A stretch of 64,000 nucleotides of DNA, from assembly GCF_018885265.1 (NCBI RefSeq), contig NZ_CP076538.1:1648001-1712000 (forward strand), read 5' to 3'. A program made the translations under genes and the position numbers. Positions 19,866 to 39,541 of this stretch are shown one piece after another. Positions within the stretch are counted from its first letter, which is position 1. The number at the start of each line of letters is the position of its first letter. This DNA is from Amycolatopsis aidingensis (GTDB lineage: Bacteria; Actinomycetota; Actinomycetes; Mycobacteriales; Pseudonocardiaceae). The notes beneath the pieces are model-generated. The model was not told where the DNA came from. It searched no databases and saw nothing but the letters and a program-made list of their open reading frames with translations.

Positions 19866-21908
19866 ATGAAAGTTCGTTGGAAGTCTCGAAGAGTGGCCCA
19901 CTCCCTGGCCTTCGCGACCGTGGGCTCGGTCGCGGTCGCCATGGTGGGCCTGGTCGGGATGGGTTCCAGCGCCGCCGAGGAAGTCTCGGTGACGCTGGAC
20001 TACACGTGTGAGTTCCCGGTGGTCGGGGCACAGTCGATGTCGGTGACGATCGACGCCCAGTTGCCGGACAACGCGATTGCCGAGCAGCCTTCTACGCCGA
20101 TCAGCTATGAGGCGACGGTGAACGTGTCGGCGAATGCCACCGACGGCCTTCGCCTGGTGGGTGCCGCAACGGTCGAGGGCTCGGCAACCACCAGCTCGAC
20201 CCTGGAGGCCCCTGGCCGGGACGAGCCGCTCGACCTGTGGCTGGACTCGCCGATCCCGGTCACCGACGTGCCTGCGGAGGGGCCGCTGACCGTGGTCACC
20301 GGAGGTACTACTCCCGCGGTGACCTATGAGGCCGGTGGCACCGCTTCGGTCTACATCGGAGACATCAGTACCTTCCTGCACCCCAAGCGGGCGGACGGTA
20401 CTGACACCGGTCTCGGGCAGTTCACCTCGCAGTGCACCCAGGACGCCGGTCAGGACAACCTGCTCGGCTCGTTCGAGGTGGCACCGCCCGACCCGAACCA
20501 CACCCCGACCCCGCCGACGACTCCGACCGAGGAGCCGCCGGACAACCCGCATGGTGAGGCCAGCCTGCGCTACACCTGCCCCTTCCCGTTGATCGGGAAC
20601 CAGGAGCTGGTGGTGGACGTCTCGTCCAACCTGCCGGAATCCCTTGACGTGGGCGAGGCGAGCGGCGACATCGCGTTCGACGCGGTGGTCACCGTTCCGG
20701 CCGAGGCCACCCAGGGGCTCAACCTGGTTGGCGCCGCCACGATCGAAGGCGACGCCACGGCGAAGGCCACCCTGACCGCGCCTGGGCTGAACCTGCCACT
20801 GGATCTGCCGCTTCCGGTGCCCTCCACGGAGATCCCGGACGAGGGTGAGTTCCAGATCCAGACCAGCGGCACCGCGCCGTCGATCACCTTCCCGGAGCCG
20901 GGTACCGCCGAGGTCACCGTTGGTGACTTCGCCAGCACCCTGACCCCGAAGAAGGAGGACGGCACGCCCACCGGGCTGGGTACGTTCACCTCGGAGTGCA
21001 CGCAGCTGCCGGGGCAGAACAACTCCCTCGGCGAGATCGAGATCGTTGGCGACCCGACCACGGAGCCCACGGAGCCCACGGAGCCGACCGAGCCGACCGA
21101 GCCGACGGAGCCCACGGAGCCCACGGAGCCGACCGAGCCGACCGAGCCGACGGAGCCGACGGAGCCGACGGAGCCGACGGAGCCCACGGAGCCCACGGAG
21201 CCGACGGAGCCGACCGAGCCCACGGAGCCGACGGAGCCGACGGAGCCCACGGAGCCCACGGAGCCGACTGAGCCGACGGAGCCGACTGAGCCGACTGAGC
21301 CGACGGAGCCGACTGAGCCGACCGAGCCGACTGAGCCGACCGAGCCCACGGAGCCGACGGAGCCGACGGAACCCACGGAACCCACGGATCCGCCGGACGA
21401 GCCGGTTGAGCTGTCCTACGACGTCGATGGCGAGACGCTGATCAAGAAGCTGAACGCCATGCTGTCGCTGGACAACGGCAGCCTGGACGCCAAGCTCGAC
21501 ACCGCGAGCGGAGACTTCGAGGGTGACCTGACCCTGCCGAAGTCGAAGCTGCGGTTCAAGCTGTTCGGTCTGCTTCCGGCCAGCGCCAAGGTGGTGCTGG
21601 ACGATGTCGGTGGCACCAACGGGAACGTGCAGGACGGCAAGGTGACGGCCAACTCGCAGGTCAGCATCAAGCTGGTCGACGTGCGGATGCTCGGGCTGCC
21701 GCTGCTCTACTCGAACAGCTGCCAGACCGTCGAGCCCGCTGATGTCGACGTCCAGTCCGGCCCGAACTTCGACCCGCTGACCGGTGGCACCCTGACCGGT
21801 GAGTACAGCATTCCGAAGTTCTCCGGCTGCGGCTTCATCACCGGGTTCATCAACGCGATGGTGCCCGGGCCGGGTAACACCCTCGAGCTGAACATCGACA
21901 GGAGGTAA
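19866..21908 (+). CDS. Secreted modular protein: two A domains, 36x EPT linker, one B domain
   Basis: A 680-residue protein with a signal peptide (about residues 1-37, ending SSAA). Two homologous domains follow, A1 (about 38-200, YTCEFPVVGAQ to SQCTQDAGQDN) and A2 (about 228-395, YTCPFPLIGNQ to SECTQLPGQNN). Each starts and ends with a Cys, probably a disulfide. A flexible rod of exactly 36 Glu-Pro-Thr triplets (400-507) leads to B (about 513-680), which has two Cys (SNSC and SGCGF). The A domain resembles the actinobacterial DUF6801-type secreted domain; this name is from memory. The stand-alone proteins at 33066 (B) and 38969 (A) are homologous. It is probably an exported, wall-spanning protein. 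No enzyme motif is seen; a lipid- or surface-related role beside the mce operon is inference. Confidence 0.82.
   Translation: MKVRWKSRRVAHSLAFATVGSVAVAMVGLVGMGSSAAEEVSVTLDYTCEFPVVGAQSMSVTIDAQLPDNAIAEQPSTPISYEATVNVSANATDGLRLVGAATVEGSATTSSTLEAPGRDEPLDLWLDSPIPVTDVPAEGPLTVVTGGTTPAVTYEAGGTASVYIGDISTFLHPKRADGTDTGLGQFTSQCTQDAGQDNLLGSFEVAPPDPNHTPTPPTTPTEEPPDNPHGEASLRYTCPFPLIGNQELVVDVSSNLPESLDVGEASGDIAFDAVVTVPAEATQGLNLVGAATIEGDATAKATLTAPGLNLPLDLPLPVPSTEIPDEGEFQIQTSGTAPSITFPEPGTAEVTVGDFASTLTPKKEDGTPTGLGTFTSECTQLPGQNNSLGEIEIVGDPTTEPTEPTEPTEPTEPTEPTEPTEPTEPTEPTEPTEPTEPTEPTEPTEPTEPTEPTEPTEPTEPTEPTEPTEPTEPTEPTEPTEPTEPTEPTEPTEPTEPTEPTEPTEPTDPPDEPVELSYDVDGETLIKKLNAMLSLDNGSLDAKLDTASGDFEGDLTLPKSKLRFKLFGLLPASAKVVLDDVGGTNGNVQDGKVTANSQVSIKLVDVRMLGLPLLYSNSCQTVEPADVDVQSGPNFDPLTGGTLTGEYSIPKFSGCGFITGFINAMVPGPGNTLELNIDRR
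21063..21386 (+). repeat. Perfect-phase 9-bp array encoding (Glu-Pro-Thr)36
   Basis: 324 bases made of 36 units of the form GA(G/A)CC(C/G/T)AC(C/G/T). Every unit encodes Glu-Pro-Thr without exception; unit differences are synonymous (mainly CCC/CCG and ACC/ACG/ACT). This shows selection for the peptide as well as repeat expansion. The array forms the linker of the secreted A-A-B protein. Confidence 0.93.
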
Positions 21909-21918
21909 CGTCCCAAAG

Positions 21919-21957
21919 GAACCGCCCCCGGCATCCGTTGCCGGGGGCGGTTTCTTT
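21919..21957 (+). terminator. Intrinsic terminator, possibly bidirectional
   Basis: A perfect 13-base stem (AACCGCCCCCGGC with its complement) around a 7-base loop is followed by TTCTTTGTT. It starts about 10 bases after the stop of the secreted A-A-B gene and lies just before the end of the convergent lipoprotein gene, so it may serve both strands. Confidence 0.85.
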
Positions 21958-21969
21958 GTTGCGGTGCCG

Positions 21970-22563
21970 CTACTTGGCCGGGGGAACCGCCCCCGGCTTG
22001 GCCTGCTGGCAGGGCGGAGCCTGCCCGAATGCCTTGCCCAGTTCCTGGCTCAGCCGCAGGTCGCGCAGCGGATCGTCCAGCCGCCCGAGCGCGGTCAGGT
22101 CCGCGCCAACCGAACCCATGGTGTCCCGGAACGCCGCGTCGTTCTCCGGCGTGGCCGCGGCGAGTTTCTCCTTGGCGCTGTTGATGGACTGCCTTGCCTC
22201 GCGCAGCTTGCCGACGGTCCGCTCGATGACCGGCGCGGCGTCCTCGGCGGGTGGCAGCCCGGCCTCGGTTATGCCGTTCGCCACGGCGCCGACCGCCTCG
22301 GCCAGTTCGCCGAGATGAGTCAGCATGAGCTGCTTGCTCTTCGCCAGGTCCTGTGCGTCCACGGCGGGACCGCCGGTCAGGGTGTCCATCTGATCCGCCG
22401 TCACGGTGCACACCTTGGCCGCCCAGTCCGTCGCGGGGTCCCGGATCGGCTCGGAGGAACCGGAGCCGCAGCCGGAAAGGGCAAGGCCACCCACGGCCGC
22501 GCAGGTCATGGTCAGTCCGAAGCGTCGTCTCAGTGCTTGTTTCGTCAGCACGGCTGACCTCAT
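21970..22563 (-). CDS. Secreted lipoprotein, second of a paralogous pair
   Basis: A 197-residue lipoprotein: signal peptide with lipobox LALSGC (Cys about residue 32), then a mostly helical domain with a Cys in WAAKVCTVTADQ and another near the end in APPCQQ. The pattern W...VCT...LTHLGELA...VIERTVGKLREARQSINSAKEKL closely matches the upstream gene, so the two are paralogs. The start overlaps the upstream stop (ATGA). The function is unknown. The pair is divergent from the mce operon, which suggests an outer-surface accessory role, but this is context only. Confidence 0.75.
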   Translation of the reverse strand: MRSAVLTKQALRRRFGLTMTCAAVGGLALSGCGSGSSEPIRDPATDWAAKVCTVTADQMDTLTGGPAVDAQDLAKSKQLMLTHLGELAEAVGAVANGITEAGLPPAEDAAPVIERTVGKLREARQSINSAKEKLAAATPENDAAFRDTMGSVGADLTALGRLDDPLRDLRLSQELGKAFGQAPPCQQAKPGAVPPAK

Positions 22564-23150
22564 TCCCCCTCGAGCCGCTTGCAGGCCGGCGCCTCGGCGA
22601 AGGCGCTCTGCAGCACGGGGTTCTGCTTGAGGTTCTTCGTCGGGTCGTCCATGCCCTGCAGTTCCTGGATCTTCTTGCCGACCTCGGTCATGGTCGACTG
22701 GAACGCGGCCGGATCGCCTGGACTCGCACCCTCGGCCTTGGACCGCGCGTTGTCCAGCGTCTGCTTGGTCTCCCGCAGGGTGCCGATGGTCTCCTCGACC
22801 AGCTCACCGCCACCCGTCACCGGCGGCGGCCCCACCGCCTCGATCCGGCTGGACAGATCCGCGAACGCCCCGGAGAGCGTGTCCAGATAGGTGAGCATCG
22901 CCTGCCGGACCTCCTGCGGCTGGTTGGAGTTCAGCGCGGGCAGGGTGGTCATCTTGCTGGCCTGCGCCTGGATCGCGGTGCATACCTGGTCGGCCCATGC
23001 GCTGGCCTCGGATCCGGCTTCGGCGGAACCGGTCGGTGCCTGCTGGCCCGCGGGCTGCCCCGATGCGGCGGGCTCCTCCGAACCACCGCACCCTGCGGCC
23101 AGCGCCAGCCCGCAGGCCGCTACCGCACCAATGACGAGTCGAGGAATCAT
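22560..23150 (-). CDS. Secreted lipoprotein, first of a paralogous pair
   Basis: A 196-residue lipoprotein. The ATG at 23150 is chosen because AAGGAAG precedes it by 6-7 bases and the lipobox LALAAGC follows directly; a longer open frame upstream has no signal features. The mature part is helical with ADQVCTAIQAQ, then VEETIGTLRETKQTLDNARSKAEG and a terminal Cys in APACKRL, matching the downstream paralog position by position. It is translationally coupled to that gene. No known family was recognised; the helical shape with two conserved Cys is typical of small actinobacterial surface lipoproteins. Confidence 0.75.
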   Translation of the reverse strand: MIPRLVIGAVAACGLALAAGCGGSEEPAASGQPAGQQAPTGSAEAGSEASAWADQVCTAIQAQASKMTTLPALNSNQPQEVRQAMLTYLDTLSGAFADLSSRIEAVGPPPVTGGGELVEETIGTLRETKQTLDNARSKAEGASPGDPAAFQSTMTEVGKKIQELQGMDDPTKNLKQNPVLQSAFAEAPACKRLEGE

Positions 23151-23624
23151 GCCGTTCTTCCTTCGTTGTCGGCTGAGTTGGAATGAGCGGCCGTCCACCG
23201 GCGCGGACTGCTGCCGCGATGTTTCCCGGTATGACTCTAACGACCGAATCGTCGCCCGGATATGGATTCGGTGCCGCGATAACAGGTCTCGATCGGGCCT
23301 CGGTGCGCAATTCCTCACCACGGTCCGACTAGCTCGGGTCGCGGATGTCACGCGCATGATAGAACCCGGTGTTCGGCCAGGTCGACGCCTGGTCCACTGG
23401 TGCTGTTGTGTTGTGCGGGCGAACCACGGGGTGCCGGATAGTCATGTGGGTAACAAGAAAACCGACCCCTGTCGATCTCATGTCCATGATTCGTGTCGAG
23501 TTCTTGTGTGCCCTGTGGCGCCCCAGTAACGTACACCAAAGTCAAGGGGCCGGTGATCCGGTAATTCGCGTTGCGCAATGCAATTCTGGTGAACATGAAG
23601 CCGCGTGGGAACAGGGGTGACGTG
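23151..23624. other. Divergent regulatory region between lipoprotein pair and mce operon
   Basis: 474 bases without a credible gene. It contains the conserved two-part element at 23504-23533 reading toward mce. Nothing else is recognised on the lipoprotein side beyond a modestly AT-rich stretch near 23225-23285. Confidence 0.5.
23504..23533 (+). promoter_or_regulatory. Shared two-part promoter-like element upstream of the mce operon
   Basis: TTGTGTGCC, 11 bases, then CAGTAACGTA. The same element with the same spacing stands at 32940-32969 before the secreted B protein and, on the other strand, at 41098-41127 before the first PucR gene. It lies 92 bases before the mce operon start codon. The spacing would suit a sigma-factor -35/-10 pair or a bipartite operator. 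Confidence 0.6.
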
Positions 23625-24707
23625 ATGGGTGTGGAGGTGGTCGTCGAGGGCCTGCGCAAGTCGTTCGGCAGCCAGAACATCCTGCGGGACGTGGCGTTCA
23701 GCCTGCCTGCCGGTGAGGTCAGCGCGCTGCTCGGTCCGTCCGGCACCGGGAAGTCGGTGTTCCTGAAATGCCTGATCGGCCTGATCCGGCCGGAGGCGGG
23801 GCGCATCGTGGTCAACGGGGTGGACCTGTGCTCCTGCCCGGAACGCACTCTGTACGAGACGCGGAAGCTGTTCGGGGTGCTGTTCCAGGACGGCGCACTG
23901 TTCGGCTCGATGAACCTCTACGACAACGTCGCCTTCCCGCTGCGCGAGCACACCAAGAAGTCCGAATCCGAGATCAAGCGGATCGTGCTGGAGAAACTGG
24001 AGATCACCGGTCTGTCCGGGGCCGAGACGAAGCTGCCCGGCGAGATCTCCGGTGGGATGCGCAAGCGTGCCGGGCTGGCGCGGGCGCTGGTGCTGGACCC
24101 GGAGATCCTGCTGGTGGACGAGCCGGACTCCGGACTGGACCCGGTGCGCACCGCCTATCTGTCCCAGTTGTTGATCGACCTGAACGCGCAGATCGACGCG
24201 ACCATCCTGCTGGTCACGCACAACATCAACGTCGCCCGCACCGTCCCGGACAACCTTGGCATGCTGTTCCGCAAGGAACTGCTCATGTTCGGCCCGCGCG
24301 AGGTACTGCTGACCTCCGAGGAACCCGCGGTCGCGCAGTTCCTGAACGGGCGGACCCTCGGCCCGATCGGAATGTCGGAGGAGAAGGACTCCGCGCAGCT
24401 GGCAAGGGAACAGGCCAACGCGGAGGCCGGGCACCGGGACGGGTCCGGCGAGGACGTGCGCGGGATCGTGCCGCAGATCGAGCCCACCCCCGGCATGCCG
24501 GAGCGGATGGGCGTGCGCCGCCGCAAGGACCGGGTGATGAAGATCCTGCACACCCTCCCTGCCCTTGCCCAGCACGGGATCGTGGCGAGCCTCAGTGCCG
24601 AGGACCGGCACCGTTACGGCCTGCGGCCGGTGACGAAACACCGGCAGGAGGCCCGAACCACCCAGTTCGCGACGGAATCCGTGACCGGGCGCTGGGAGCT
24701 GCCGTGA
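23625..24707 (+). CDS. mceG: MceG/Mkl-family ATPase of the Mce lipid importer
   Basis: A 360-residue ABC ATPase, the same size as mycobacterial Mkl (about 359). The ATG at 23625 is preferred because AGGGG stands 7 bases before it; an earlier ATG at 23595 is possible. Motifs: Walker A GPSGTGKS, signature EISGGMRKRAGLARAL, Walker B ILLVDEPDSGLDP, switch VTHNIN. The C-terminal extension beyond residue 240 (QFATESVTGRW at the end) is the mark of the MceG group rather than proteobacterial MlaF. It powers lipid uptake through YrbE/Mce proteins. It is the first gene of the operon and overlaps the next start (GTGA). Confidence 0.92.
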   Translation: MGVEVVVEGLRKSFGSQNILRDVAFSLPAGEVSALLGPSGTGKSVFLKCLIGLIRPEAGRIVVNGVDLCSCPERTLYETRKLFGVLFQDGALFGSMNLYDNVAFPLREHTKKSESEIKRIVLEKLEITGLSGAETKLPGEISGGMRKRAGLARALVLDPEILLVDEPDSGLDPVRTAYLSQLLIDLNAQIDATILLVTHNINVARTVPDNLGMLFRKELLMFGPREVLLTSEEPAVAQFLNGRTLGPIGMSEEKDSAQLAREQANAEAGHRDGSGEDVRGIVPQIEPTPGMPERMGVRRRKDRVMKILHTLPALAQHGIVASLSAEDRHRYGLRPVTKHRQEARTTQFATESVTGRWELP

Positions 24708-25504
24708 CCACACCGACCTACCGGCTGCCGGGCCTGGACCGCGTCGCGGCGGCGATGCGGGAGTTCGGTCGTGGCTTCTCGCTCGGCCTGGACGTGATCG
24801 TCGCCATCTTCAAGCGCCCCTTTCAGGCCCGCGAGTTCATCCAGCAGTTCTGGTTCATTGCCAGCGTGTCGATCACCCCGGCGATCCTGGTCGCGATCCC
24901 GTTCGGCGCGGTGATCTCGCTCCAGCTCGGCACCCTCACCAGCCAGATCGGTGCCTCCTCCTTCAACGGCGCGGCCAGCGTGCTCGCCGTGGTACAGCAG
25001 GCCAGCCCGATCGTCACCACCCTGATCATCGCGGGCGCGGGCGGCTCAGCGATCTGCGCGGACCTCGGCTCGCGCAAGATCCGCGAGGAGATCGACGCGA
25101 TGGAGGTGCTCGGTGTCTCGCCGATCCAGCGGCTGATCGTGCCGAGGGTGCTTGCCGCGATACTGGCCGCGGTACTGCTCAACGGCCTGGTCAGCGTGGT
25201 CGGCGTCGCCGGGGGCTACTTCTTCAACGTCATCGTGCAGGGTGGTACCCCCGGCGCGTACCTGGCCAGCTTCAACGCGCTGGCCCAGCTGCCGGACCTG
25301 TGGGTCGGCATGATCAAGGCGTTCATCTTCGGTTTCCTCGCCGGTGTCGTCGCCGCCTACCGGGGGCTGAACCCGCGAGGCGGACCCAAGGGCGTCGGCG
25401 ACGTGGTGAACCAGTCGGTGGTGATCACCTTCCTGCTGCTGTTCTTCGTCAACACCGTGATCACCGGGCTGTACCTGCAGCTGGTGCCTGCGAAGGGAAC
25501 GTAG
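24704..25504 (+). CDS. yrbEA: Mce permease YrbEA (MlaE family)
   Basis: A 266-residue membrane protein with a GTG start overlapping the mceG stop. It has five to six transmembrane helices and the MlaE signature REEIDAMEVLGVSPIQRL (about residues 127-144), which contacts the ATPase. The end, VVITFLLLFFVNTVITGLYL, is typical of YrbE. By family knowledge it pairs with YrbEB to form the inner-membrane channel for lipid substrates delivered by the Mce hexamer. Confidence 0.93.
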   Translation: MTTPTYRLPGLDRVAAAMREFGRGFSLGLDVIVAIFKRPFQAREFIQQFWFIASVSITPAILVAIPFGAVISLQLGTLTSQIGASSFNGAASVLAVVQQASPIVTTLIIAGAGGSAICADLGSRKIREEIDAMEVLGVSPIQRLIVPRVLAAILAAVLLNGLVSVVGVAGGYFFNVIVQGGTPGAYLASFNALAQLPDLWVGMIKAFIFGFLAGVVAAYRGLNPRGGPKGVGDVVNQSVVITFLLLFFVNTVITGLYLQLVPAKGT

Positions 25505-25506
25505 CC

Positions 25507-26346
25507 GTGACCACTGTGGGCGAGCGGGCGAAGGCGACGTTGCGGCGTCCAGGGGACAGTTTGTTCAGCTTGGGCGACCAGCTGCTGTTCTATGTGCGGG
25601 CACTGGCCGCGGCGCCGCTGACGATCCGGCGCTACTTCAAGGAAGTCGTCCGGCTGCTGGCCGAGGTGACCTTCGGCAGCGGTGCGCTCGCGGTCATCGG
25701 CGGCACCATCGGCGTGATGGTCGGCCTGACCCTGTTCACCGGGGTCACCGTGGGGCTGCAGGGTTTCAGCGCGCTGAACCAGATCGGCGTTTCGGCGCTG
25801 ACCGGGTTCATGACCGCCTACTTCAACACCAGGGAGATCGCGCCACTCTCCGCGGGGCTCGCGCTGTCCGCGACGGTCGGAGCCGGGTTTACCGCGCAGC
25901 TCGGCGCGATGCGGATCTCCGAGGAGATCGACGCGCTCGAGGTGATGGCGGTGCGCAGCCTGCCCTTCCTGGTCACCACCCGGATCATCGCCGGATTCGT
26001 CGCGATCATCCCGCTGTACGTGATCGGCCTGCTGACCTCGTACGTGGCCTCCCGGCAGGTGACGGTATGGATACTCGGGCAGTCCGGCGGCACCTATGAC
26101 CACTACTTCGCCCTGTTCCTGCCGCCGGAGGACGTGCTCTGGTCCTTCGGCAAGGTACTGGTCTTCAGCGTGGCGGTGATCCTCACCCACTGCTTCTACG
26201 GCTACCGCGCGGCGGGCGGGCCCGCCGGTGTCGGTGTGGCCGTCGGGCGGGCGGTGCGGACCTCGATCGTGCTGATCAGCGTCCTCGACCTCTTCCTCAG
26301 CCTGGCGATCTGGGGCGTGAACACGACGGTGCAGGTGGCTGGATGA
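25507..26346 (+). CDS. yrbEB: Mce permease YrbEB (MlaE family)
   Basis: A 279-residue MlaE-type permease with a GTG start two bases after the yrbEA stop. The conserved loop is SEEIDALEVMAVRSLPFL, followed by RIIAGFVAIIPLYVIGLL. It is homologous to the upstream permease, and the two are expected to form a heterodimer. The stop overlaps the mceA start (ATGA). Confidence 0.93.
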   Translation: MTTVGERAKATLRRPGDSLFSLGDQLLFYVRALAAAPLTIRRYFKEVVRLLAEVTFGSGALAVIGGTIGVMVGLTLFTGVTVGLQGFSALNQIGVSALTGFMTAYFNTREIAPLSAGLALSATVGAGFTAQLGAMRISEEIDALEVMAVRSLPFLVTTRIIAGFVAIIPLYVIGLLTSYVASRQVTVWILGQSGGTYDHYFALFLPPEDVLWSFGKVLVFSVAVILTHCFYGYRAAGGPAGVGVAVGRAVRTSIVLISVLDLFLSLAIWGVNTTVQVAG

Positions 26347-27641
26347 GCAAGAAGGAAACCGGAAAGCGGCTGGGCACCCAGCTCGCCGGGGTCGCGTTCC
26401 TGATGATCCTGGTGCTGATGCTGTGGTTCACGGTCGCGATCTACGAGCGACGGTTCGAGGACGTGGAAACGGTCACCCTGCGCACCGACCGGATCGGGAA
26501 CCAGATGGAGATCAACTCCGAGGTGAAGTCCCGGGGTGTCCCCTTCGGTTACGTCTCGGATGTCCGTACCACCGACGCCGGTGCGGAGATCGAGCTGGCG
26601 ATGGACCCGGCCACGATCGAGCAGCTGCCGAGCAACGTCTCCGCCCGGCTGCTGCCGAAGACCGTCTTCGGGCAGCGGTATGTCAACCTGGTGCTACCGG
26701 AGGAGCCATCGAAGGACCGCCTTTCCGGTGGGGACGTGATTCCGCAGGACCGCTCGAAGAACGCCATCGAGCTGGAACGGGTGCTCGGCAACCTGCTGCC
26801 GTTGCTGCGGGCCGTGCAACCGCAGAAGCTGTCCGCCTCGCTGGGTGCGGTGTCCCAGGCGCTCGACCAACGCGGTGAGCCGCTCGGCGACAGCATCGTC
26901 AAGCTGAACAAGCTGCTGTCCGAGCTCAACCCACTGATGCCGGAGTTCAAGGCCGATATCAGCGGGGTAGCAGACGTCGCCGAGTTGTACGACGAGGCCG
27001 CGCCGGACATCCTGCGCGCACTGGCCGACCTCACCGTGACCGGGCGGACGGTGACCGAGCATCGCGGTGACCTCGAGGCGCTCTACGGCGATCTCACCGC
27101 GACCTCCGACGACCTGAACGCCTTCCTGCGGGAGAACAAGGACAACCTGATCGGGGTCAGCGATGCCAGCAGGCCGACCCTGGAGCTGCTGGCCAGGTAC
27201 TCCCCGTCCTTCCCCTGCCTTTTCGACGCGGTGAACCGGTTCAAGCCGGTGATGGAGAAGGCACTGGGCGCCGGGACGAACGAACCCGGCCTGCATGTCG
27301 ACATCTCGGTACAGCAGCCGCGCGGCAAGTACGTACCGGGCAGGGACACCCCGGTCTACAACGCGGGCGGCGGCCCGCGTTGCTATCCCCCCGGCGCGGG
27401 CCCGGGGCAGGGCGTGCGCCCGGCGGGAGGTGCCCGCGGCGCGGCGGGCACCGCCGAGGAGCCGGCCACGGGTGCCCCGCTGGCGCTGGAGCGCGGCGGG
27501 CTCGCCAACTCGCCCTATGAGCGGCAACTGGTCACCGAGCTGATGGCGGCCAGGCTGGGCACCACCCCGGACGCGGTGCCCGGTTGGAGCAGCCTGCTGG
27601 TCGGGCCGCTGCTGCGTGGAGCGGAGGTGACGTTGAAGTGA
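26343..27641 (+). CDS. mceA: Mce family protein A
   Basis: A 432-residue protein with one N-terminal transmembrane helix (LAGVAFLMILVLMLWFTVAI), an MCE beta-barrel domain (about 40-120, NSEVKSRGVPFGYVSDV, LLPKTVFGQRYVNLV) and a long helical part (about 140-310) that forms the needle in Mce complexes. The tail after 340 is Gly/Pro/Ala-rich with a Cys in PRCYPPG, as in mycobacterial MceA. It is the first of six MCE proteins in one operon, expected to form a hetero-hexameric lipid conduit. Confidence 0.92.
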   Translation: MSKKETGKRLGTQLAGVAFLMILVLMLWFTVAIYERRFEDVETVTLRTDRIGNQMEINSEVKSRGVPFGYVSDVRTTDAGAEIELAMDPATIEQLPSNVSARLLPKTVFGQRYVNLVLPEEPSKDRLSGGDVIPQDRSKNAIELERVLGNLLPLLRAVQPQKLSASLGAVSQALDQRGEPLGDSIVKLNKLLSELNPLMPEFKADISGVADVAELYDEAAPDILRALADLTVTGRTVTEHRGDLEALYGDLTATSDDLNAFLRENKDNLIGVSDASRPTLELLARYSPSFPCLFDAVNRFKPVMEKALGAGTNEPGLHVDISVQQPRGKYVPGRDTPVYNAGGGPRCYPPGAGPGQGVRPAGGARGAAGTAEEPATGAPLALERGGLANSPYERQLVTELMAARLGTTPDAVPGWSSLLVGPLLRGAEVTLK

Positions 27642-28657
27642 AGGGCATCGCGGCACCCCTGGTCAAGGGTCTGATCTTCCTGCTGGTCACCGGGATGGCC
27701 TCGGTGGTCCTCGGGATCACCATCGCCAATGTCGGGGTCGGGGACACGGTCAGCTATACCGCCCGGTTCACCGACGCCACCTCGGTGAACCCCGGGGACG
27801 ACGTGCGGATGGCCGGGGTGCGGATCGGGCAGGTCGAGGACGTCGAGGTGGTGGAGCGGCGCTACGCCGACGTTACCTTCGGAGTGGACGCCGGGCGTCC
27901 GCTCGCGGCCTCGGCCACCGTGGCGATCCGCTACCGCAACCTGGTCGGCCAGCGCTACCTCGCCGTGGACCAGGGCGACTTCCCGATGGGGGAGAAGTTG
28001 TCCGCGGGCACGCATATCCCGCTGGAGCGGACCACCCCCGCGCTGGACCTGACCGCGATGTTCAACGGTTTCAAACCACTGTTCCAGGCGATGAACCCGG
28101 ATGACGTGAACAAGCTGTCCTACGAGCTGATCCAGGTGTTGCAGGGCGAGGGGCCGACGTTGAACAGCTTCCTGCGGCACACCGCCTCGCTCACCTCCAC
28201 CCTGGCGGACAAGGACAAGGTGATCGGCGAGGTGATCACCAACCTGAACACGGTGCTGGACACGGTGAACGCCAAGGGCGACGAGCTCGGCACGCTGATC
28301 ACCACCACCAAGCAGCTGGTGGAAGGGCTGGCCGCGGACGCGAAACCGATCGGCCAGGCGATCGGCGGGCTCGGCGAGCTGGCCAGCAGTACCGCGGACC
28401 TGCTGCAGGAGGGCAGGAAGCCGCTGCAGCAGGGCATCAACACCCTCGGCGACCTCTCCCGCAACCTCGCCGACAACACCGCGGTGTTCGAGAAGTTCCT
28501 GAACAACCTGCCTGCCAAGTACGACCGGATCGGCACCCTGGTCTCCTACGGGTCCTGGTTCAACTTCTACCTGTGCTCGGCTTCCTCGGACGCCGACCGC
28601 GCACCGGGCGGGCCGCCGGTCGGAATCCCGATCACTCAGCCGAGGTGCCGCCGATGA
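27638..28657 (+). CDS. mceB: Mce family protein B
   Basis: A 339-residue protein starting with GTG in an overlap with the mceA stop, with GGAGG 11 bases upstream. It has an N-terminal helix (LIFLLVTGMASVVLGITIA), MCE domain (DVRMAGVRIGQVEDVEV, YRNLVGQRYLAV) and helical region to about residue 300. It ends in a short Cys-containing segment (YLCSASS, QPRCRR). It is the second subunit of the predicted MceA-F hexamer. Confidence 0.92.
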   Translation: MKGIAAPLVKGLIFLLVTGMASVVLGITIANVGVGDTVSYTARFTDATSVNPGDDVRMAGVRIGQVEDVEVVERRYADVTFGVDAGRPLAASATVAIRYRNLVGQRYLAVDQGDFPMGEKLSAGTHIPLERTTPALDLTAMFNGFKPLFQAMNPDDVNKLSYELIQVLQGEGPTLNSFLRHTASLTSTLADKDKVIGEVITNLNTVLDTVNAKGDELGTLITTTKQLVEGLAADAKPIGQAIGGLGELASSTADLLQEGRKPLQQGINTLGDLSRNLADNTAVFEKFLNNLPAKYDRIGTLVSYGSWFNFYLCSASSDADRAPGGPPVGIPITQPRCRR

Positions 28658-30716: not shown

Positions 30717-30720
30717 GGAG

Positions 30721-31710: not shown

Positions 31711-31716
31711 CCACCG

Positions 31717-32826
31717 ATGCTCACCAAACTCGTTCGCTGGCAGATACTGATCTTCCTGGTGATCGCGCTGGTCGGGATCAGCTATGTCGGCGCGAACTAC
31801 GTCGGTTTGCAGAAAATGCTGTTCGACAGCGGCTACGTCGTGCACGCCCGTTTTGTCAGTGGCGGCGGGATGTTCACCAACTCCGAGGTCACCTATCGTG
31901 GGGTTGGCGTCGGCAGGGTCGGTGAACTGCGGCTCACCGAGACCGGAATGGAAGCCGATCTTGTCATCGAGCCGGGCGCCCCGCCGATTCCAGCCGACCT
32001 GGAGGCGGTGGTGCGCAGCCGCTCGGCGGCCGGTGAGCAGTTCGTGGACCTGCGACCGCGCACCGATGAAGGCCCGATGTTGCACGACGGCTCGGTGATC
32101 GAGCAGGACCGCACCGATATCCCGCTGCCGGTGCACACGGTGCTGACGAACCTGGACGCGCTGGTGCAGTCGGTGCCGAAACCGGCGCTGCGCACCGTGG
32201 TGGACGAACTCTACGACGCGACCTCCGGTGCCGGGCCCAACCTGGAAGTACTGGTGGACAGCGGGATCGAGTTCATCCAGGAGGCCACCGAGCACGTCCC
32301 ACAGGTCACCAGCCTTGTGACCGACTCGGAAACCGTGTTGCGGACCCAGGTCCGGCAGTCCGAGGCGATCAAGTCCTTCGGCGCGGACGCCAGGGCGCTC
32401 GCCGAGCAGCTGAAGAAGTCCGATGGTGACTTGCGGGAGGTGATCACGGCCGTGCCGCCGGTCGCCCGCGAGGTCGGTGCACTGGTCCGGGAGTCGGGTC
32501 CGCGGCTGGGCGTGCTGCTTGCGAACCTGCTGACCGTATCCAATGTGGTCGAAGTGCGCCAGAACGGGCTGGAGCAGCTACTGGTGAAGGCGCCGGAGGC
32601 GGTCGCGGCCGGCTCGCAGGTGGTCCGTGCCGACGGTGCCCACTTCGGGCTCGCGCTGACCTTCTTCGACCCGCCGCCGTGCACCAGCGGGTACGACACG
32701 CGGTACCGCAACGGCCTGGACACCTCGGCAGGCGGCCCGTTGAACACCGGCGCCCGATGCACCCTGCCGAAGAACGACCCCACCGGGGTGCGCGGCTCGC
32801 GCAACGTTCCCCGGCCGGGTGGCTGA
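31717..32826 (+). CDS. mceF: Mce family protein F
   Basis: A 369-residue protein, ATG 5 bases after GGGGTGA. One N-terminal helix (QILIFLVIALVGISYVGANY), MCE domain (TYRGVGVGRVGELRL, VRSRSAAGEQFVDLRP), helical part and a C-terminal Cys segment (PPPCTSGYD, GARCTLP). It closes the mce operon. No Mce-associated (mas) gene follows; a secreted B-domain protein comes next, after its own promoter-like element. Confidence 0.92.
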   Translation: MLTKLVRWQILIFLVIALVGISYVGANYVGLQKMLFDSGYVVHARFVSGGGMFTNSEVTYRGVGVGRVGELRLTETGMEADLVIEPGAPPIPADLEAVVRSRSAAGEQFVDLRPRTDEGPMLHDGSVIEQDRTDIPLPVHTVLTNLDALVQSVPKPALRTVVDELYDATSGAGPNLEVLVDSGIEFIQEATEHVPQVTSLVTDSETVLRTQVRQSEAIKSFGADARALAEQLKKSDGDLREVITAVPPVAREVGALVRESGPRLGVLLANLLTVSNVVEVRQNGLEQLLVKAPEAVAAGSQVVRADGAHFGLALTFFDPPPCTSGYDTRYRNGLDTSAGGPLNTGARCTLPKNDPTGVRGSRNVPRPGG

Positions 32827-32969: not shown

Positions 32970-33065
32970 TTTTATGGGCGGAAACGAAGCGGAAAATCGA
33001 AACCGTGGCCGCTCTCCGACATAACGTCCCTGTCTGAAGCGCCCTAAGGTGCGAGGAGATTTGAG

Positions 33066-33680
33066 ATGAAGAAAATTCGTACGATGGCGAGCGTGGCGGC
33101 CGTGGGTGCCAGTGCTGCCCTCGTCGGCGGCGTGCTGAGCCCCGGCGTCGCCGCGGCCGAGCCGCTCGAGCTCAGCTACACGGTGACCGGATCGGCGCAT
33201 GTGGCGAAGATGAACACCGACATCCCCATCGAAGCCACTGTGGACGTTCAGCTCGACCTGAAGACCGGTGAGTTCGACAGCCAGTTCACGCAGACCAGCG
33301 TGCCGCACGTGAAGTTCAAGGCTTTCGGCATGTTCGACAGCGAGCTGGACGTGGAGTTCTACGAAGCGGCGCCCTCCAGCGGCACCTTCAAGGCGGGTGA
33401 GGTGGACTTCACCCTCCCGCTGCAGATCAGGCTGAAGAACCTCACCGCGATGGGCTTCCCGCTGATGGTGGGCGAGAACTGCGTGCAGCAGCAGCCGCCG
33501 ACGCTGAACCTGAGCTCGACGGACGAGTTCATCCCGACCGAGGGCGGCAGCCTGGAGACCAGCGAGCCCTACACGCTCTCCGAGTGGTCGGAGGACTGCG
33601 GGTTCTCCACCTTCCTGATCAACATGAACTCCGCGGGCGGGAACAACACCGCACAGGTGACGCTGACCGCGAAGGAGTAA
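33066..33680 (+). CDS. Secreted single B-domain protein, mce-adjacent
   Basis: A 204-residue protein behind a GAGGAG ribosome site. The signal peptide ends near residue 31 (SPGVAAAEP). The mature protein (LELSYTVTGSAHVAKMNTDI ...) aligns along its length with the C-terminal B domain of the protein at 19866. Shared features are the opening ELSY, a central K-F-K-x-F-G-x-(F/L), the segment LPL or FPL before the first Cys (GENC), and a second Cys in DCGF before the final beta strand. No catalytic motif is visible; it is likely a beta-rich exported binding or structural module. It has its own copy of the mce promoter-like element, so co-expression with the importer is likely. Confidence 0.8.
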   Translation: MKKIRTMASVAAVGASAALVGGVLSPGVAAAEPLELSYTVTGSAHVAKMNTDIPIEATVDVQLDLKTGEFDSQFTQTSVPHVKFKAFGMFDSELDVEFYEAAPSSGTFKAGEVDFTLPLQIRLKNLTAMGFPLMVGENCVQQQPPTLNLSSTDEFIPTEGGSLETSEPYTLSEWSEDCGFSTFLINMNSAGGNNTAQVTLTAKE

Positions 33681-33808
33681 CCGCAGGACCGCCCCGGTTC
33701 GAAGGGAACCACAGGCCACGGCGGGCCGGGGCCGGTTCGTGGCGGGCCGTGCGATCGCAGGCGTCGGTGCACGGTCCGCCACGGGCCATTCCAGTGTGTG
33801 GAGAACCA

Positions 33809-35587
33809 ATGTTGACGAGCTCGGATCCCATCCCGGCGAGCGGGACCGCGCCGGAGGCCGCCGGGGACGGACCACGGGCCGATACGCTTCCCGCCCTGCT
33901 GGAGAACTGGGCGAGGAACCAGGGCGAGAAGATCGCCCTCAGCTGTCTCGACCACCACACCGGCCCCGAGGACCGGATCGTGTCGCTGACCTGGAGCGAA
34001 CTGGAGCACCGGGTACGGGAGACCGCGACCTGGCTGCGGCACCGGGTGGAACCGGGCGGGCGGGTCGCACTGCTGGTCCCGCACGGACCCGAGTACGTGC
34101 TCGGGTTCCTCGCCGCCCTGCATGCGGGCCTGGTCGCGGTGCCGCTGTTCGCGCCGGTCCGGCCGGCACACGGTGACCGGCTGGACGCAATCCTTGCCGA
34201 TGCCGGGGTTTCGGTGGTGCTGACCACCCGCGCCCAGCAGTCGAGGACACAGGATGTGGTGCACCGGCTGTGCGCACCCCGGCCGGAGGTGGTGGCCGTT
34301 GAGGCCACCCGCGCCGATCCGGAACCCGCGCCGTTGCCTGCCAGGGACGATCTCGCGTACCTGCAGTACACCTCCGGCTCCACCCGCGTCCCCGCCGGGG
34401 TGATGATCACGCACGGGAACCTGGTGGCCTGCGCCCGCCAGGCCGCGGTCACCTACGGCGTGCTTCCGGGGCGTTCGGTGACGGTGAGCTGGCTGCCGCT
34501 TTACCACGACATGGGCCTGATGCTGGCCGTGCTGGCGCCCTGCGTGCTGGGGATCCGTTCGGTGCTGCTGGATCCCGCCGCGTTCCTGGAGCGGCCGGCC
34601 CGGTGGCTGCGCGCGCTGTCCACCTTCCCCGGCGCGATCAGCGCGGCGCCCAGCTTCGCCTACGGGTACGCCGCGGCCAGGGTCACCGAACGGGAGCGGT
34701 CCGGGCTGCGGCTGGACCAGGTGGGCGCCCTGATCGACGGTGGGGAGCCGGTGCGGGCCGAGTTGTTCGCCCGCTTCCGCGAGCGGTTCGCCTGCTGCGG
34801 GCTGCCCGCCACCGCGCACTGCCCCTCCTACGGCCTCGCCGAGTCCACGGTCCTGGTGGCAGGCGTTCCCGCCGCGGCCGCGCCGGTGTCCACCACCTTC
34901 TACCGCGCGCAACTGGCCAGGGGGGACGCGGTGCAGGCCGAGCACGGCGAGCAGAGCACGGTCACCCTCACCAGCTGCGGCTGGCCCGCGGGTCAGGAAG
35001 TCCGGATCGTGCATCCGCAGACCGGTGCCGAGCTTCCGGACGGCAAGGTCGGCGAGATCTGGGTGAACGGGCCGAATGTCGGCCGCGGGTACTGGCAGCG
35101 GCCCGCGGAATCCGCGGCCACCTTCTGCGCGCTGCTGGCCGGGGACGAGGAGCCCCGCTGGTGGCTGCGCACCGGCGACCTCGGCCTGCGGTTCGACAGC
35201 AGGCTCTATGTCACCGGCAGGCTCAAGGACCTGATCGTGGTGGACGGTCGCAAGCACTACCCGCAGGATGTGGAGGCCACCGTCGAGGGCGCCCACCCTG
35301 CGATCCGCCCGCATATGGTGGCCGCGTTCGCGGTACCGGACAGCAACGGGGACCAGGTGGTGGTGCTCGCGGAGCGGTCCGGCTGGGTGATCGAATGCGA
35401 ACTCGATCCCGAGGAGGTCACCCGCGCGATCCGGCATTCGGTCGCAAGGGAACACGGCCTTCCGCTGCACGATGTGCTGCTGCTGGCCCCGGACGAGGTG
35501 CCGAGGACGACCAGCGGGAAGATCGCTCGCGCCGCCTGCCGGGAACGTTATGTCTGCGGTGGGTTCGCCGGGAGCCGGGTCTCGTGA
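33809..35587 (+). CDS. Fatty-acyl-AMP ligase (FAAL/FadD32-like)
   Basis: A 592-residue adenylate-forming enzyme with GGAGA 6 bases before the ATG. Motifs: ATP loop YTSGSTRVPAGVMITHGN, SWLPLYHDMGL, YGLAEST, RTGDLG, and the final lysine in RTTSGKIARA. The spacing and the SWLPxYHDMGL motif are typical of fatty-acyl-AMP ligases, which activate long fatty acids for transfer to a carrier protein or PKS instead of CoA. It is coupled (GTGA) to a PKS-like gene, matching the FAAL-PKS pairing of mycobacterial lipid loci, yet no acyl carrier domain is present in the pair. Situated beside mce, it may activate imported or exported acyl chains; that is inference. Confidence 0.88.
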   Translation: MLTSSDPIPASGTAPEAAGDGPRADTLPALLENWARNQGEKIALSCLDHHTGPEDRIVSLTWSELEHRVRETATWLRHRVEPGGRVALLVPHGPEYVLGFLAALHAGLVAVPLFAPVRPAHGDRLDAILADAGVSVVLTTRAQQSRTQDVVHRLCAPRPEVVAVEATRADPEPAPLPARDDLAYLQYTSGSTRVPAGVMITHGNLVACARQAAVTYGVLPGRSVTVSWLPLYHDMGLMLAVLAPCVLGIRSVLLDPAAFLERPARWLRALSTFPGAISAAPSFAYGYAAARVTERERSGLRLDQVGALIDGGEPVRAELFARFRERFACCGLPATAHCPSYGLAESTVLVAGVPAAAAPVSTTFYRAQLARGDAVQAEHGEQSTVTLTSCGWPAGQEVRIVHPQTGAELPDGKVGEIWVNGPNVGRGYWQRPAESAATFCALLAGDEEPRWWLRTGDLGLRFDSRLYVTGRLKDLIVVDGRKHYPQDVEATVEGAHPAIRPHMVAAFAVPDSNGDQVVVLAERSGWVIECELDPEEVTRAIRHSVAREHGLPLHDVLLLAPDEVPRTTSGKIARAACRERYVCGGFAGSRVS

Positions 35588-38500
35588 CCGAGGGCGCGGC
35601 GTCCGGTGCCTCCCGGAACGGGCACCCCGAGCCGGGGGAGCCGATCGCCGTCATCGGCGCGGGCTGCCGCATGCCCGGCGAGGTCACCGGGTTCGACGCC
35701 GGGTTCTTCGGTATCTCCGCGAGCGAGGCCCGCGCCCTGGACCCGTGGCACGGCGTGCTGCTGGAGGCCGTCTGGTCGGCGCTGGAACACGCCGGTATCC
35801 CACCGCGGGCGTTACGCGGCAGCGAGACTGGGGTGTTCGTCGTCGCCGGGCCGGGGGCCGTCGAACTGCTCGCGGGCCGGTTCGACCTGCGCGGCCCGTG
35901 CGCGCGGGTGGACCAGGGGCGCGCGCCCGAGGCGGTGCACCGGGCGGCGTGGAGCCTGCGCCGCGGGGAATGCGCGCTGGCGGTGGCCTGCGCGGTCGTG
36001 CCTGGCAACGGCTGCGGGGTGCTGGTGCTCGAGCGGCTCGATCGGGCAAGGGCGGACGGCGACCGGACACTGGCCGTGCTCGGCGCTGGCGGCAGTGCCG
36101 AGGGGCCACTGGAGGCGGTACTCGCCCTGCGTGAGGGCAGGGTGCCCGCGGGCTACGGCGGTCCCGGTGCGGCGATGCCCCGGCCCCGCCCCGGGTTTTC
36201 CGCAGGCAGGGAGCATGTGTTCGCGCTGTCCGCGCATACCGAGCAGGCCCTGCGCAGGCGGGCCCGCGATCTCGTGCGCTGGCTGGAGACGCCCGCCGGG
36301 CGCGCGGTGGAGGCATGCGATCTCGCGGCGGCACTCGCGGTGCGCAGGGAGCATCTGGACCTGCGGGCGACCGTGGTGGCCGCGGGCAGGGGCGGGCTGG
36401 CCAGCGGGCTGCGGGCTATCTCCATCGGTGCCACGGCGGCGCAGGTGTGCAGGGGCCGAGGCGAGGGCGCGGGGGGAGCGGTGTTCGTGTTCTCCGGCAG
36501 CGGGTCGCAGTGGCCGGGCATGGGGCGGCGACTGCTGACCGGGGAGCCGGCCTTCCGCGCCGAGGTCGAGGCGCTGGAGCCGGTTTTCCTCGGCACGGCG
36601 GGGTTCTCCCTGCGCAAGCAGCTGCGGCAGGCGGGGAAGCAGGCCGGTGCCGAGCGCTCCGGGATGGTGTTGTTCGGCATGCAGCTGGCACTGGCCGGGC
36701 TGTGGCGTGCGCACGGGGTGGAGCCGGTGGCCGTGCTCGGCCATGGCGCGGGGGAGATCGCGGCCGCGGTGCTGGCCGGCGCGCTGGAGATCCCGGACGG
36801 CCTGGCACTGCTCGGTTCCGGCGCGCGGCAGGTGCTGCCCGGCCCGCCGCGGCTCGCCTGCTATTCCGGGATGCCGGGGGATCCCGATCCGGTGCCGTTG
36901 CGTGCGGCGCTGGCCACGGCGATGTCCGAGGGGCACCGGGTGTTCCTCGAGGTATCGCCGCATCCGATCGCGCTGGCCGCGGTGCGGGCGACCGCGGTGG
37001 AGGAAGGCGTACCCGGGATTTCGGCTCTGCCCAGCATGAGCCGGTATGCCGGGCGGCGGGAGGAGTTCGTGGCCAGCCTCGCCGCCCTGCACGCCGCGGG
37101 CCACGCCACGGTGCTGGGACGCCGCTACCCGGATGCGCCGGTGCTGGACCTACCCGAACCGCCGTGGCCACCCACCGCCGCAGGCCCGGCCGTGCCATCG
37201 CAGGCGGAACCGGCGGGCGACGGCACCGTGTTCGAGCTCGGCTGGGAACGCGTCCCGAGCTCGGAACCGCCGCCCGGCCCCTCGCGGACCTGGCTGCTGC
37301 TGCCGGACGACTCCTCCACCGCGCTCAAGCAGTCCTTCATGGTGGCCGCGGGGCTTGCCCTGCGCGGCGATCGTGGTTACGCGCTGCCGCAGGACGACGC
37401 CGAGGAACTGCCTGCGGTGCTGGCCGAGCTGAGCACGGACCGGTCCTCGCCACTGGCCGGGGTGGTGCTGTTCGCCGGCTCCCTCGCCGAGTACCGGTTT
37501 CCCGAGCTCGCCCAGCACTTGCTGCTGACGGTCACCGAGGTGGTGCGCCGGGTGACCGAGCTGGGCGGGACGTTGCCCCGGTTGTGGCTGGTGACCGCGC
37601 ACGGGACGGCCGTGCTCGACGGTGAGCCCGGCGAGCCGGGGCTGGCCTTCCTGCGCGGGCTGGTGCGGGTGCTGGCCTTCGAACATCCCGGGCTGCACGC
37701 CACCATGGTGGACCTGGACGGGCTGACCGGAACCGGGGCGCTGCCCGCGGAGCTGCGGGCGGGCCGCGCCGATGACGAGGTCGCCTGGCGCCGTGGCGAG
37801 CGGTTCGTCGCCCGGCTGCGCGGGGTCACGCTGCCCGCGCGGCGGGGCCCGGTGGCCGGTGCGGGTGCCTACGTGATCACCGGCGGGCTCGGCCGCCTCG
37901 GCCCGTTGCTGGCGACCTGGCTCGCGGAACAGGGGGCGAGCCGGATCGTGCTGTGCGGGCGTGGCGGCGCCGGGGCCGAGGCGCGGGCCGCGCTGGCCGG
38001 GCTGCGTGCCGCGGGGACGGAGATCGAGCTGGTGCGCGGGGATATCGCCGCGCCGGGCGTCGCCGAGGCCGTGGTCGCCGCCGCCACCGCGGGCGGGCTG
38101 ACCCTGCGCGGGGTGGCGCATGCGGCGGGGGTGCTCGATGACCGTGCGCTGATCGAAGTGGACGGTGCGGACCTGGCGCGGGCCTGGCGGCCGAAGGTGC
38201 TCGGTGGCTGGCGGCTGCACAAGGCGACCGAAGGGTTCGAGCTGGACTGGTGGCTGGCCTTCTCCGCAACCACCGCGCTGTTCGGCGCGCCGGGGCGGGT
38301 CGCGGACGCCGCCGCGAACGCCTGGCTGGACGCGCTGGTGCGCTGGCGCCGGGCGAACGGCCTCACCGGAACCACGGTCAACTGGGGCGCCTGGGACACC
38401 GGACCCGGCCAGCGGGCGGACCCGCTGGCCGAGCCGATGGCCCCCGCGCAGTGCCTCGCCGCGCTGTCCGCCGTGCTCGCCGGTGACCGACCCGCCACCG

Positions 38501-38622
38501 CGGTGGCCTGTGTGGACCTTCCCGGCGCGTTACGCACCTTCCCCGGCCTCGCCCGCCGTCCGTTCCTGGAGGCACTGGCCCGCGAAGGCCGCCCGGACCC
38601 GTTGTACCTCCCCTCCGTCTGA
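35584..38622 (+). CDS. PKS-like protein with KS, AT and KR remnants lacking catalytic residues
   Basis: An intact 1012-residue frame with a GTG start overlapping the FAAL stop. Residues about 17-200 are half a ketosynthase: IAVIGAGCRMPG is present, but the Cys motif DTACSSS reads VDQGRAPEA and the two His motifs are missing. Residues about 300-500 are AT-like (VFSGSGSQWPGMG), but the nucleophile motif GHSxGE is GHGAGE. Residues about 760-980 are KR-like with a normal cofactor loop (ITGGLGRLG), but the YAAAN motif is VADAAAN, losing the Tyr. There is no carrier or thioesterase domain. The frame shows no stops over 3 kb, which argues for selection rather than decay. It may be a scaffold or regulator of the FAAL, or have a new activity. 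Confidence 0.8.
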   Translation: MTEGAASGASRNGHPEPGEPIAVIGAGCRMPGEVTGFDAGFFGISASEARALDPWHGVLLEAVWSALEHAGIPPRALRGSETGVFVVAGPGAVELLAGRFDLRGPCARVDQGRAPEAVHRAAWSLRRGECALAVACAVVPGNGCGVLVLERLDRARADGDRTLAVLGAGGSAEGPLEAVLALREGRVPAGYGGPGAAMPRPRPGFSAGREHVFALSAHTEQALRRRARDLVRWLETPAGRAVEACDLAAALAVRREHLDLRATVVAAGRGGLASGLRAISIGATAAQVCRGRGEGAGGAVFVFSGSGSQWPGMGRRLLTGEPAFRAEVEALEPVFLGTAGFSLRKQLRQAGKQAGAERSGMVLFGMQLALAGLWRAHGVEPVAVLGHGAGEIAAAVLAGALEIPDGLALLGSGARQVLPGPPRLACYSGMPGDPDPVPLRAALATAMSEGHRVFLEVSPHPIALAAVRATAVEEGVPGISALPSMSRYAGRREEFVASLAALHAAGHATVLGRRYPDAPVLDLPEPPWPPTAAGPAVPSQAEPAGDGTVFELGWERVPSSEPPPGPSRTWLLLPDDSSTALKQSFMVAAGLALRGDRGYALPQDDAEELPAVLAELSTDRSSPLAGVVLFAGSLAEYRFPELAQHLLLTVTEVVRRVTELGGTLPRLWLVTAHGTAVLDGEPGEPGLAFLRGLVRVLAFEHPGLHATMVDLDGLTGTGALPAELRAGRADDEVAWRRGERFVARLRGVTLPARRGPVAGAGAYVITGGLGRLGPLLATWLAEQGASRIVLCGRGGAGAEARAALAGLRAAGTEIELVRGDIAAPGVAEAVVAAATAGGLTLRGVAHAAGVLDDRALIEVDGADLARAWRPKVLGGWRLHKATEGFELDWWLAFSATTALFGAPGRVADAAANAWLDALVRWRRANGLTGTTVNWGAWDTGPGQRADPLAEPMAPAQCLAALSAVLAGDRPATAVACVDLPGALRTFPGLARRPFLEALAREGRPDPLYLPSV

Positions 38623-38633
38623 CCCGCCGGAAC

Positions 38634-38733
38634 GGCCAACACGCCTGCATGAGCGGCAAACACAATCGCGCCGGCGTGTTTGCTCCCCACGCGCACGCGT
38701 TTGCCGTCCACATCCGCGCGTTTGCTCCCCACA
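38634..38733. repeat. Inverted cluster of the 21-bp repeat, hairpin-forming
   Basis: Two units on the + strand (from 38634 and 38655) face about three units on the - strand, using the same GC(C/A)AACxCG unit as the array at 11748. The junction forms a stem GCAAACAC/GTGTTTGC around 12 bases, about 35 bases after the stop of the PKS-like gene, so it may act as a terminator. The rest of the 346-base gap (38734-38968) holds only AT-richer leader sequence of the next gene. Confidence 0.7.
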
Positions 38734-38968
38734 TACCCGATTCGGCCGCGATTCAGTCATGCAGGGCAGGGTCGTATTTCGCCGAACGCTGAGTCCGGTG
38801 ACAATAATTTCGTCAACTGGTAAATGGTAACCGCGGCGACTTGTTGGGTCCGTCAATCACACACTAGCCTGTTGATTGGCAAGTCCGGGCCCGGGCTACC
38901 ACTGGTTGTGAGTTTCGTTGCGCGTTCCGCGTTTGCGGACGGTGTTTTCAACGACGAAAGGGCTGGAA

Positions 38969-39541
38969 ATGACGACTACCAAGGTGCGGGCCGGAATTGT
39001 CGCCGCCGTCGCGGCGGTCGGTTTGTTCGGTGCCGGCACGGCCAGTGCCGCGGACACGACGTTGACCTGGAAGGGCGCCTTCCCGATCATCGGCGAGCAG
39101 ACCGTGGAAACGGTTGTGCACGTGGACATCCCGGAGCAGGCCACGCCCGGTGAGCAGCTTTCGGTCCCGTTCAGCATCGACGTGGACGCGGGCACCGCGG
39201 CGGCGGACGGGCTGCGGCTGGTCGGGGCGACCCAGATCTCCGGCGAGATCAGCAGTTCGGTGACCATCACCGCCAGCGACGGCCAGAGCGTTCCGCTCAC
39301 CATCAAGCTGCCCATTCCGGAGACTCCGGTCCCCGCGGAGGGCTCGCTGACCTTCGCCGCCGAGGGTTCCGTCGACTTCGCCATTCCCGAGGGCGTCCCC
39401 TCCGGCCCTGCGGAGACCACCGTGGACCCGGAGGCCAGCACGCATGTGGTGACCGACAGCTCGCTCGGTGAGTTCGATGTCGAGCTGGCGCTGGACCCGC
39501 CGGACCAGGACACCCTGCTGGGCACCACCGAGGTCGGCTGA
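38969..39541 (+). CDS. Secreted single A-domain protein
   Basis: A 190-residue protein; the ATG at 38969 is followed directly by a signal peptide (GIVAAVAAVGLFGAGTASA), and an upstream in-frame start would only add a charged extension. The mature protein matches the A1 and A2 domains of the protein at 19866: FPIIGEQ, ADGLRLVGATQISGE, PIPETPVPAEGSLTF, then a threonine/serine stretch before the end. Unlike A1 and A2 it lacks both flanking Cys residues (WKGAF instead of YTCEF). The role is unknown. A strong hairpin terminator follows. Confidence 0.8.
   Translation: MTTTKVRAGIVAAVAAVGLFGAGTASAADTTLTWKGAFPIIGEQTVETVVHVDIPEQATPGEQLSVPFSIDVDAGTAAADGLRLVGATQISGEISSSVTITASDGQSVPLTIKLPIPETPVPAEGSLTFAAEGSVDFAIPEGVPSGPAETTVDPEASTHVVTDSSLGEFDVELALDPPDQDTLLGTTEVG

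Follow-up and report, generated by a model that had tools for sequence, protein, structure and literature searches.

Secreted two-domain proteins and an Mce importer

What are the secreted proteins encoded on both sides of a bacterial lipid importer to that importer? The question is raised by a 64,000-nucleotide stretch of the Amycolatopsis aidingensis genome (contig NZ_CP076538.1, positions 1,648,001 to 1,712,000; hereafter the window), in which a complete mce importer lies among genes for proteins built from two domains, here called A and B. A preliminary description of this DNA had taken the fusion of A and B in one protein as a sign of functional partnership, and had proposed the two domains as outer partners of the Mce system. 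Below, we describe the linkage of A and B to mce genes, which recurs across genomes, and loci that carry A and B beside mce genes lacking an adjoining permease. With moderate confidence, we propose that actinobacterial Mce importers have a secreted accessory module, of which A and B are the extracytoplasmic domains, and that it captures lipids for the outer end of the needle formed by MceA-F.

A and B around the importer of A. aidingensis

The plus-strand gene at 19866..21908 encodes a secreted A-A-(EPT)36-B protein of 680 residues, assigned from Pfam matches and pairwise alignment. A signal peptide (about residues 1-37, by eye) is followed by A1 (about 40-205), A2 (about 232-394), the EPT linker (400-507) and B (512-680). 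As first described, the linker contains exactly 36 perfect EPT units without interruption (21051..21398 with its flanks, plus strand). Both A copies match the Pfam family DUF6801 (PF20611), with 220.3 bits over two stretches against a cut-off of 26. A second plus-strand gene (33066..33680), starting 239 bp after mceF, encodes a 204-residue secreted protein consisting of B alone, which is 29% identical to the fused B over 173 columns (E 1e-23). A third (38969..39541, plus strand) encodes a 190-residue secreted protein consisting of A alone, which matches DUF6801 with 50.3 bits (cut-off 26) and is 30% identical to the fused A2 (E 4e-9). The homologies originally read from motif order therefore hold for both domains; for A, the motifs GLRLVGA and PAEG need rewording, as A2 has GLNLVGA and PDEG.

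The importer between these genes is complete, as had been claimed, and all its genes lie on the plus strand. An MceG/Mkl-like ATP-binding cassette ATPase (23589..24707; PF00005) is followed by the permeases YrbEA (24704..25504, start uncertain; MlaE match at window positions 24836-25465) and YrbEB (25525..26346, start uncertain; profile matches). MceA (26343..27641; PF11887 and PF02470), MceB (27638..28657; profile match), MceC (28573..29646, open reading frame bounds), MceD (29646..30716), MceE (30709..31710) and MceF (31717..32826; profile match) complete the mce operon, in which two YrbE genes precede six mce genes (24704-32826).

The 7.66-Mb genome, a single contig, contains ten MlaE matches that correspond to five YrbE pairs, and both A and B are found at two of these five mce loci. 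The second of them, L013, lay outside the view of the preliminary description; its picture of A and B genes around an mce operon stands, and its count of one fused and two split genes misses this locus. At L013, A-A, A and A-linker-B precede MceG, YrbEA, YrbEB and MceA-F, in this order, and two Mas-like genes (by eye) and a B gene of convergent orientation follow; A-B and MceG are separated by about 15 bp. One more A (L015) and one more B-like gene (L014) lie far from the MlaE matches of this genome.

Linkage to mce genes across the family

Among 60 genomes of the family, A. aidingensis included, A is found in 31 and the B profile in 31, with both in 29 and either in 33 (A only in G007 and G051; B only in G006 and G011). 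Seven of the 60 have no MlaE match; A occurs in none of these and B in one (G011, a 74% complete assembly). In the 33 genomes, the matches to A and B group into 86 clusters. At least 35 of these clusters (27 genomes) have an Mce or YrbE gene no more than 10 kb away, where random cluster placement with a 30-kb zone per mce operon predicts 1.19 (standard deviation 1.08); the near-mce counts are lower bounds, and related genomes are not independent. The two outcomes named in advance as refuting the proposed partnership were a lack of enrichment near mce operons across genomes and stand-alone proteins unrelated to the fused domains; the data go against both. A 28th genome, G045, adds another A-B beside MceG (L144). 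Outside A. aidingensis, 79 of 82 clusters were fetched, leaving out G011:C361, G045:C48 and G045:C56.

A and B genes occur at either end of mce operons, in some cases overlapping the adjoining gene (gaps are approximate). At two loci (L060, L080), A-B shares 4 bp with the gene in the YrbEA position, and at another (L072) it overlaps MceA by 4 bp. B alone shares 10-13 bp with the gene in the YrbEA position at three loci (L070, L087, L097) and stands directly before MceG at two (L075, L105). In an MceA tree of 43 rows, sampled around A and B, the linked operons fall on several branches, Streptomyces-like ones included.

Fusion of the two domains, originally read as a sign of partnership from a single gene, is frequent. 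Both domains are present in 42 of the 115 A- or B-bearing genes called in the fetched loci (22 genomes), with A only in 37 and B only in 36; the gene caller was a simple codon-position scorer, so that starts are uncertain and some genes were missed. Linkers in 24 aligned fused proteins range from about 6 to 120 residues, and many are rich in P/T, EPT, PTT or GGTD. Three loci (L067, L088, L099) encode very long proteins of about 1000-1100 residues, with an A-A-(about 550 residues)-B layout.

A and B at mce loci without permease genes

Several A or B clusters without an MlaE match nearby turned out to adjoin mce genes. Seven loci carry mce genes together with A and/or B and, as judged with in-frame probes, lack both YrbE and MceG over the stretch fetched (L072, L103, L093, L092, L081, L107 and L108). 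They belong to seven genomes from five genera (G016, G055, G034, G032, G021, G059 and G029), and all of MceA-F are present at six of the seven; the count is biased, because all seven were found through A or B. At L108 (G029:C18), which is cut by the contig end, MceA is missing, and MceB directly follows A-B. The idea that A and B always stand beside a permease is rejected by these loci. Mapped on the MceA tree, the permease-less state requires two changes, of which at least one is imposed by well-supported branches.

The same seven genomes contain nine YrbE-bearing loci among the matches listed in Mce4_CUP1 and MlaE searches; two of these (in G021 and G059) hold mce remnants only. Six-frame scans with four A/B profiles placed A or B at none of the nine, and the same scans recovered the positive controls L072 and L144. 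The presence of A and B at permease-less mce loci, alongside their absence from YrbE-bearing loci, indicates that they go with the MceA-F needle and not with the permease. G021 and G059 each have one YrbE pair, again among the matches listed. At these pairs (L133, L134), MceG and both YrbE genes are intact and the adjoining mce genes are reduced to fragments, while the sole complete MceA-F set of each genome lies elsewhere, accompanied by A-B and B. The simplest reading is that the unlinked YrbE/MceG motor serves this needle, and that A and B would belong with the needle, i.e. on the outer side.

Distribution beyond the family

A phylum-wide set of 296 genomes yielded A in five and B in five, A. 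aidingensis being included in both counts (per-genome match numbers in the phylum and order searches are minima). Three of these genomes belong to one genus, g53, in which one A-B protein shares 86% identity with a named Streptomyces protein. In each of the three, A-B neighbours an mce operon: at L129 and L130 it immediately precedes MceG on the same strand, and at L128 it is divergent, with one gene intervening. A is absent from at least five other g53 genomes of the phylum sample. In G273, which represents another family of the same class, about 6 kb separates B from a YrbE pair, and a PucR regulator lies in this interval. With the enrichment near mce genes, the homology of stand-alone and fused domains, the frequent fusion and this recurrence outside the family, the partnership of A and B with Mce, as originally proposed, is well supported. 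The same G273 locus (L132) contains tandem secreted-looking proteins of about 200-258 residues with a VAVGGSSA-like start (about 9463-13246), near the B and B-like genes and the mce operon with its PucR regulator.

Across 249 genomes of the order, A is found in 28, of which 23 are from the family of A. aidingensis. G355, of family f72, has one A-B copy about 10 kb from its YrbE pair. Arrays of A-(PTPV-rich linker)-B proteins occur in G355 and G379, which are 4-5 Mb genomes (L138, L139, L141).

Predicted folds and comparison with known systems

All-beta folds are predicted for both A and B, and the A and B proteins begin with signal-peptide-like N termini (by eye). AlphaFold models B, including the stand-alone protein of the window, as a closed beta-barrel with very high confidence (predicted local distance difference test score of 95). 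Foldseek places this fold close to closed barrels that include DynF, avidins and a polyisoprenoid-binding protein. Two cysteines and one asparagine are invariant in all 49 aligned B domains. Two cysteines are present in each A copy of the 19866 and L013 proteins, and none in stand-alone A (38969) or in four aligned relatives. In Herbihabitans rhizosphaerae, DUF6801 occurs together with a fibronectin type III domain (P0081).

Stand-alone B has no match in Pfam or NCBIfam. A set of 49 diverse B domains produced single-member matches only in Pfam (best E 0.0055), among which no YceI or lipocalin-like profile appeared at E 0.1, and none in NCBIfam at 0.01. Neither database yielded a substrate-binding protein profile for A or B, and a PDB sequence search with B and A-B returned nothing significant. 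The closest named relative of B is from Amycolatopsis cihanbeyliensis (88%). We found no described function for DUF6801 in the literature, and no description of A or B in titles and abstracts on Mce accessories, the Mce1 structure, yrbE-less mce loci or the mce genes of Pseudonocardiaceae and Crossiella. The consulted portions of PMC1810536, PMC9882608 and PMC10517005 do not mention them.

The structural relatives of B are distant in sequence. The YceI-type polyisoprenoid-binding barrel 1wub and DynF (6ubl) are 7-8% identical to B, which is set apart from both by its own invariant cysteine pair and asparagine and lacks a Pfam YceI match. A putative membrane-anchored protein of Corynebacterium diphtheriae (3lso) is 17% identical, with no sequence match, and we found no described function for it. 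Identity to the outer-membrane barrels OmpW, NspA and OmpA is 1-7%; hosts such as Streptomyces have no outer membrane.

Two sets of known Mce accessories invite comparison. Mas proteins are extracytoplasmic and encoded next to actinobacterial mce operons, like A and B, and an accessory ligand-binding role has been suggested for them (PMC1810536, in the portion consulted). Unlike Mas, A and B are predicted to be all-beta, occur fused to each other and are often encoded upstream; at some loci they have Mas-like genes (by eye) as neighbours. LucA and LucB are likewise accessory to Mce transporters, LucB being a membrane protein bound to the Mce1C helix, with orthologues reported in Pseudonocardiaceae (PMC9882608, in the portion consulted). 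Unlike LucB, A and B look like secreted proteins; apart from the signal peptide, no membrane helix is apparent by eye.

Recurrent neighbours and the remainder of the window

In 12 of 86 cases (29 genomes), a secretory lipase gene (PF03583) is found no more than 10 kb from A or B, where 1.08 are expected. Among the recurrent neighbours, enrichment was tested for these lipases; the PucR and AMP-ligase neighbours described here are given without a background count. A similarity group of 49 genes from 24 genomes is found beside A and B loci, and its Pfam-scanned member (L079) is a PucR-type regulator. Regulators of this type also stand beside L013, L132 and the stand-alone A of the window, which is adjoined by a minus-strand gene at 39611..41068 (HTH_30). 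AMP-ligase, acyl carrier protein and thioesterase-like genes recur at some A and B loci. The AMP-ligase of the window (33848..35587, plus strand), with a DIP2-like C-terminal domain, lies between stand-alone B and stand-alone A together with a polyketide synthase (PKS)-like gene (35584..38622, plus strand). The product of the latter, encoded behind the ligase, has partial ketosynthase, acyltransferase and ketoreductase domains; its ketosynthase aligns over 56 residues, and the protein as a whole looks atypical or degenerate.

Two minus-strand lipoprotein-like genes separate the A-A-B gene from MceG, so that the A-A-B gene lies outside the importer operon in the window; among the three A and B genes of the window, only B (33066) looks able to sit in that operon. 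The first of the pair (21970..22563, by eye) has no Pfam match, and the second (22560..23357) has none above cut-off. Both belong to one similarity group, which comprises eight genes near A and B loci in seven genomes.

A proposed lipid-capture module and its alternatives

We propose that the A/B proteins deliver lipids to the needle from outside. Lipases at the outer wall would release fatty acids or sterols, which the B barrel, with its invariant cysteine pair, may hold. A, a predicted beta-sandwich, could contact the wall or the MceA-F portal as an anchor or docking part, and the flexible linker would let B shuttle from the outer wall to the outer end of the needle. Import of the lipid would then proceed through the MceA-F tunnel and YrbE/MceG, and several paralogues per genome may serve different lipids. 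Fusion, linkage to mce genes, retention beside them where the permease is unlinked and the neighbourhood of lipases are directly observed; lipid binding, contact with Mce and the direction of import are what we infer. The substrate-binding or wall-spanning role suggested in the preliminary description may likewise apply to A and B.

Several observations weigh against an exclusive role of the module in Mce import. The module is not exclusive to mce, since 51 of 86 family clusters (an upper bound) were not found near mce genes, and confinement of A and B to mce loci is rejected on this count. A-B arrays occur in family f72, where A matches number 14 or more in each genome, and most of these copies lie away from the single YrbE pair. 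In G180, A lies about 190 kb from the nearest MlaE match, with no link, and G400 has A without any MlaE match. The unlinked clusters, the f72 arrays and the pairing of A with a fibronectin type III domain are what would be expected if A and B were generic surface proteins, such as adhesins or wall-binding domains, near mce merely as fellow surface genes. We regard this explanation as unlikely, because it sits poorly with 4-bp overlaps with permease or mceA genes, with the retention of A and B beside mce genes and not beside the permease in seven genomes, and with a link that spans several MceA-tree branches and Streptomyces-like genomes.

Transport in the opposite direction, in which MceA-F together with A and B would export lipids or carry them along the wall, the lipid being made by the flanking AMP-ligase and PKS, appears improbable. 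It draws on the ligase and PKS-like genes between B and A in the window, on the ligase, acyl carrier protein and thioesterase-like genes that recur near A and B loci, and on the permease-less mce sets, which could function without an adjoining importer. However, most linked operons in the gene-order comparison have YrbE genes, and the enrichment was tested for secretory lipases, the ligases having no background count. Binding of heme or another cofactor by B, as in its top Foldseek match, the corynebacterial HtaA domain (6jsc, C-terminal domain, E 0.022), is rejected as very improbable, because no histidine column reaches 60% in the 49 B domains (tyrosine columns reach at most 38/49 and 36/49) and none of these domains has a Pfam HtaA match at E 0.1.

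The lipid-capture proposal can be tentatively extended to a general extracellular lipid relay in actinobacteria without a mycolate outer membrane, in which needle and A/B would be separable and share one unlinked YrbE/MceG motor. In such a relay, a secreted lipase would free the lipid, and the B barrel would carry it on an A-anchored flexible tether to the MceA-F needle. Sharing of an unlinked motor would explain the loci that combine MceA-F with A and B and lack a permease.

The Mce1 structure paper, in the portion consulted, does not decide between direct entry of lipids into the portal and entry via additional unknown factors (PMC9882608). A and B are candidates for such additional factors in these hosts. 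Judging from the permease-less MceA-F loci, needle genes need not be linked to motor genes. A secreted two-domain partner, with A from a family of undescribed function and B from no Pfam or NCBIfam family, is a testable candidate for lipid delivery to the needle in tractable soil bacteria.

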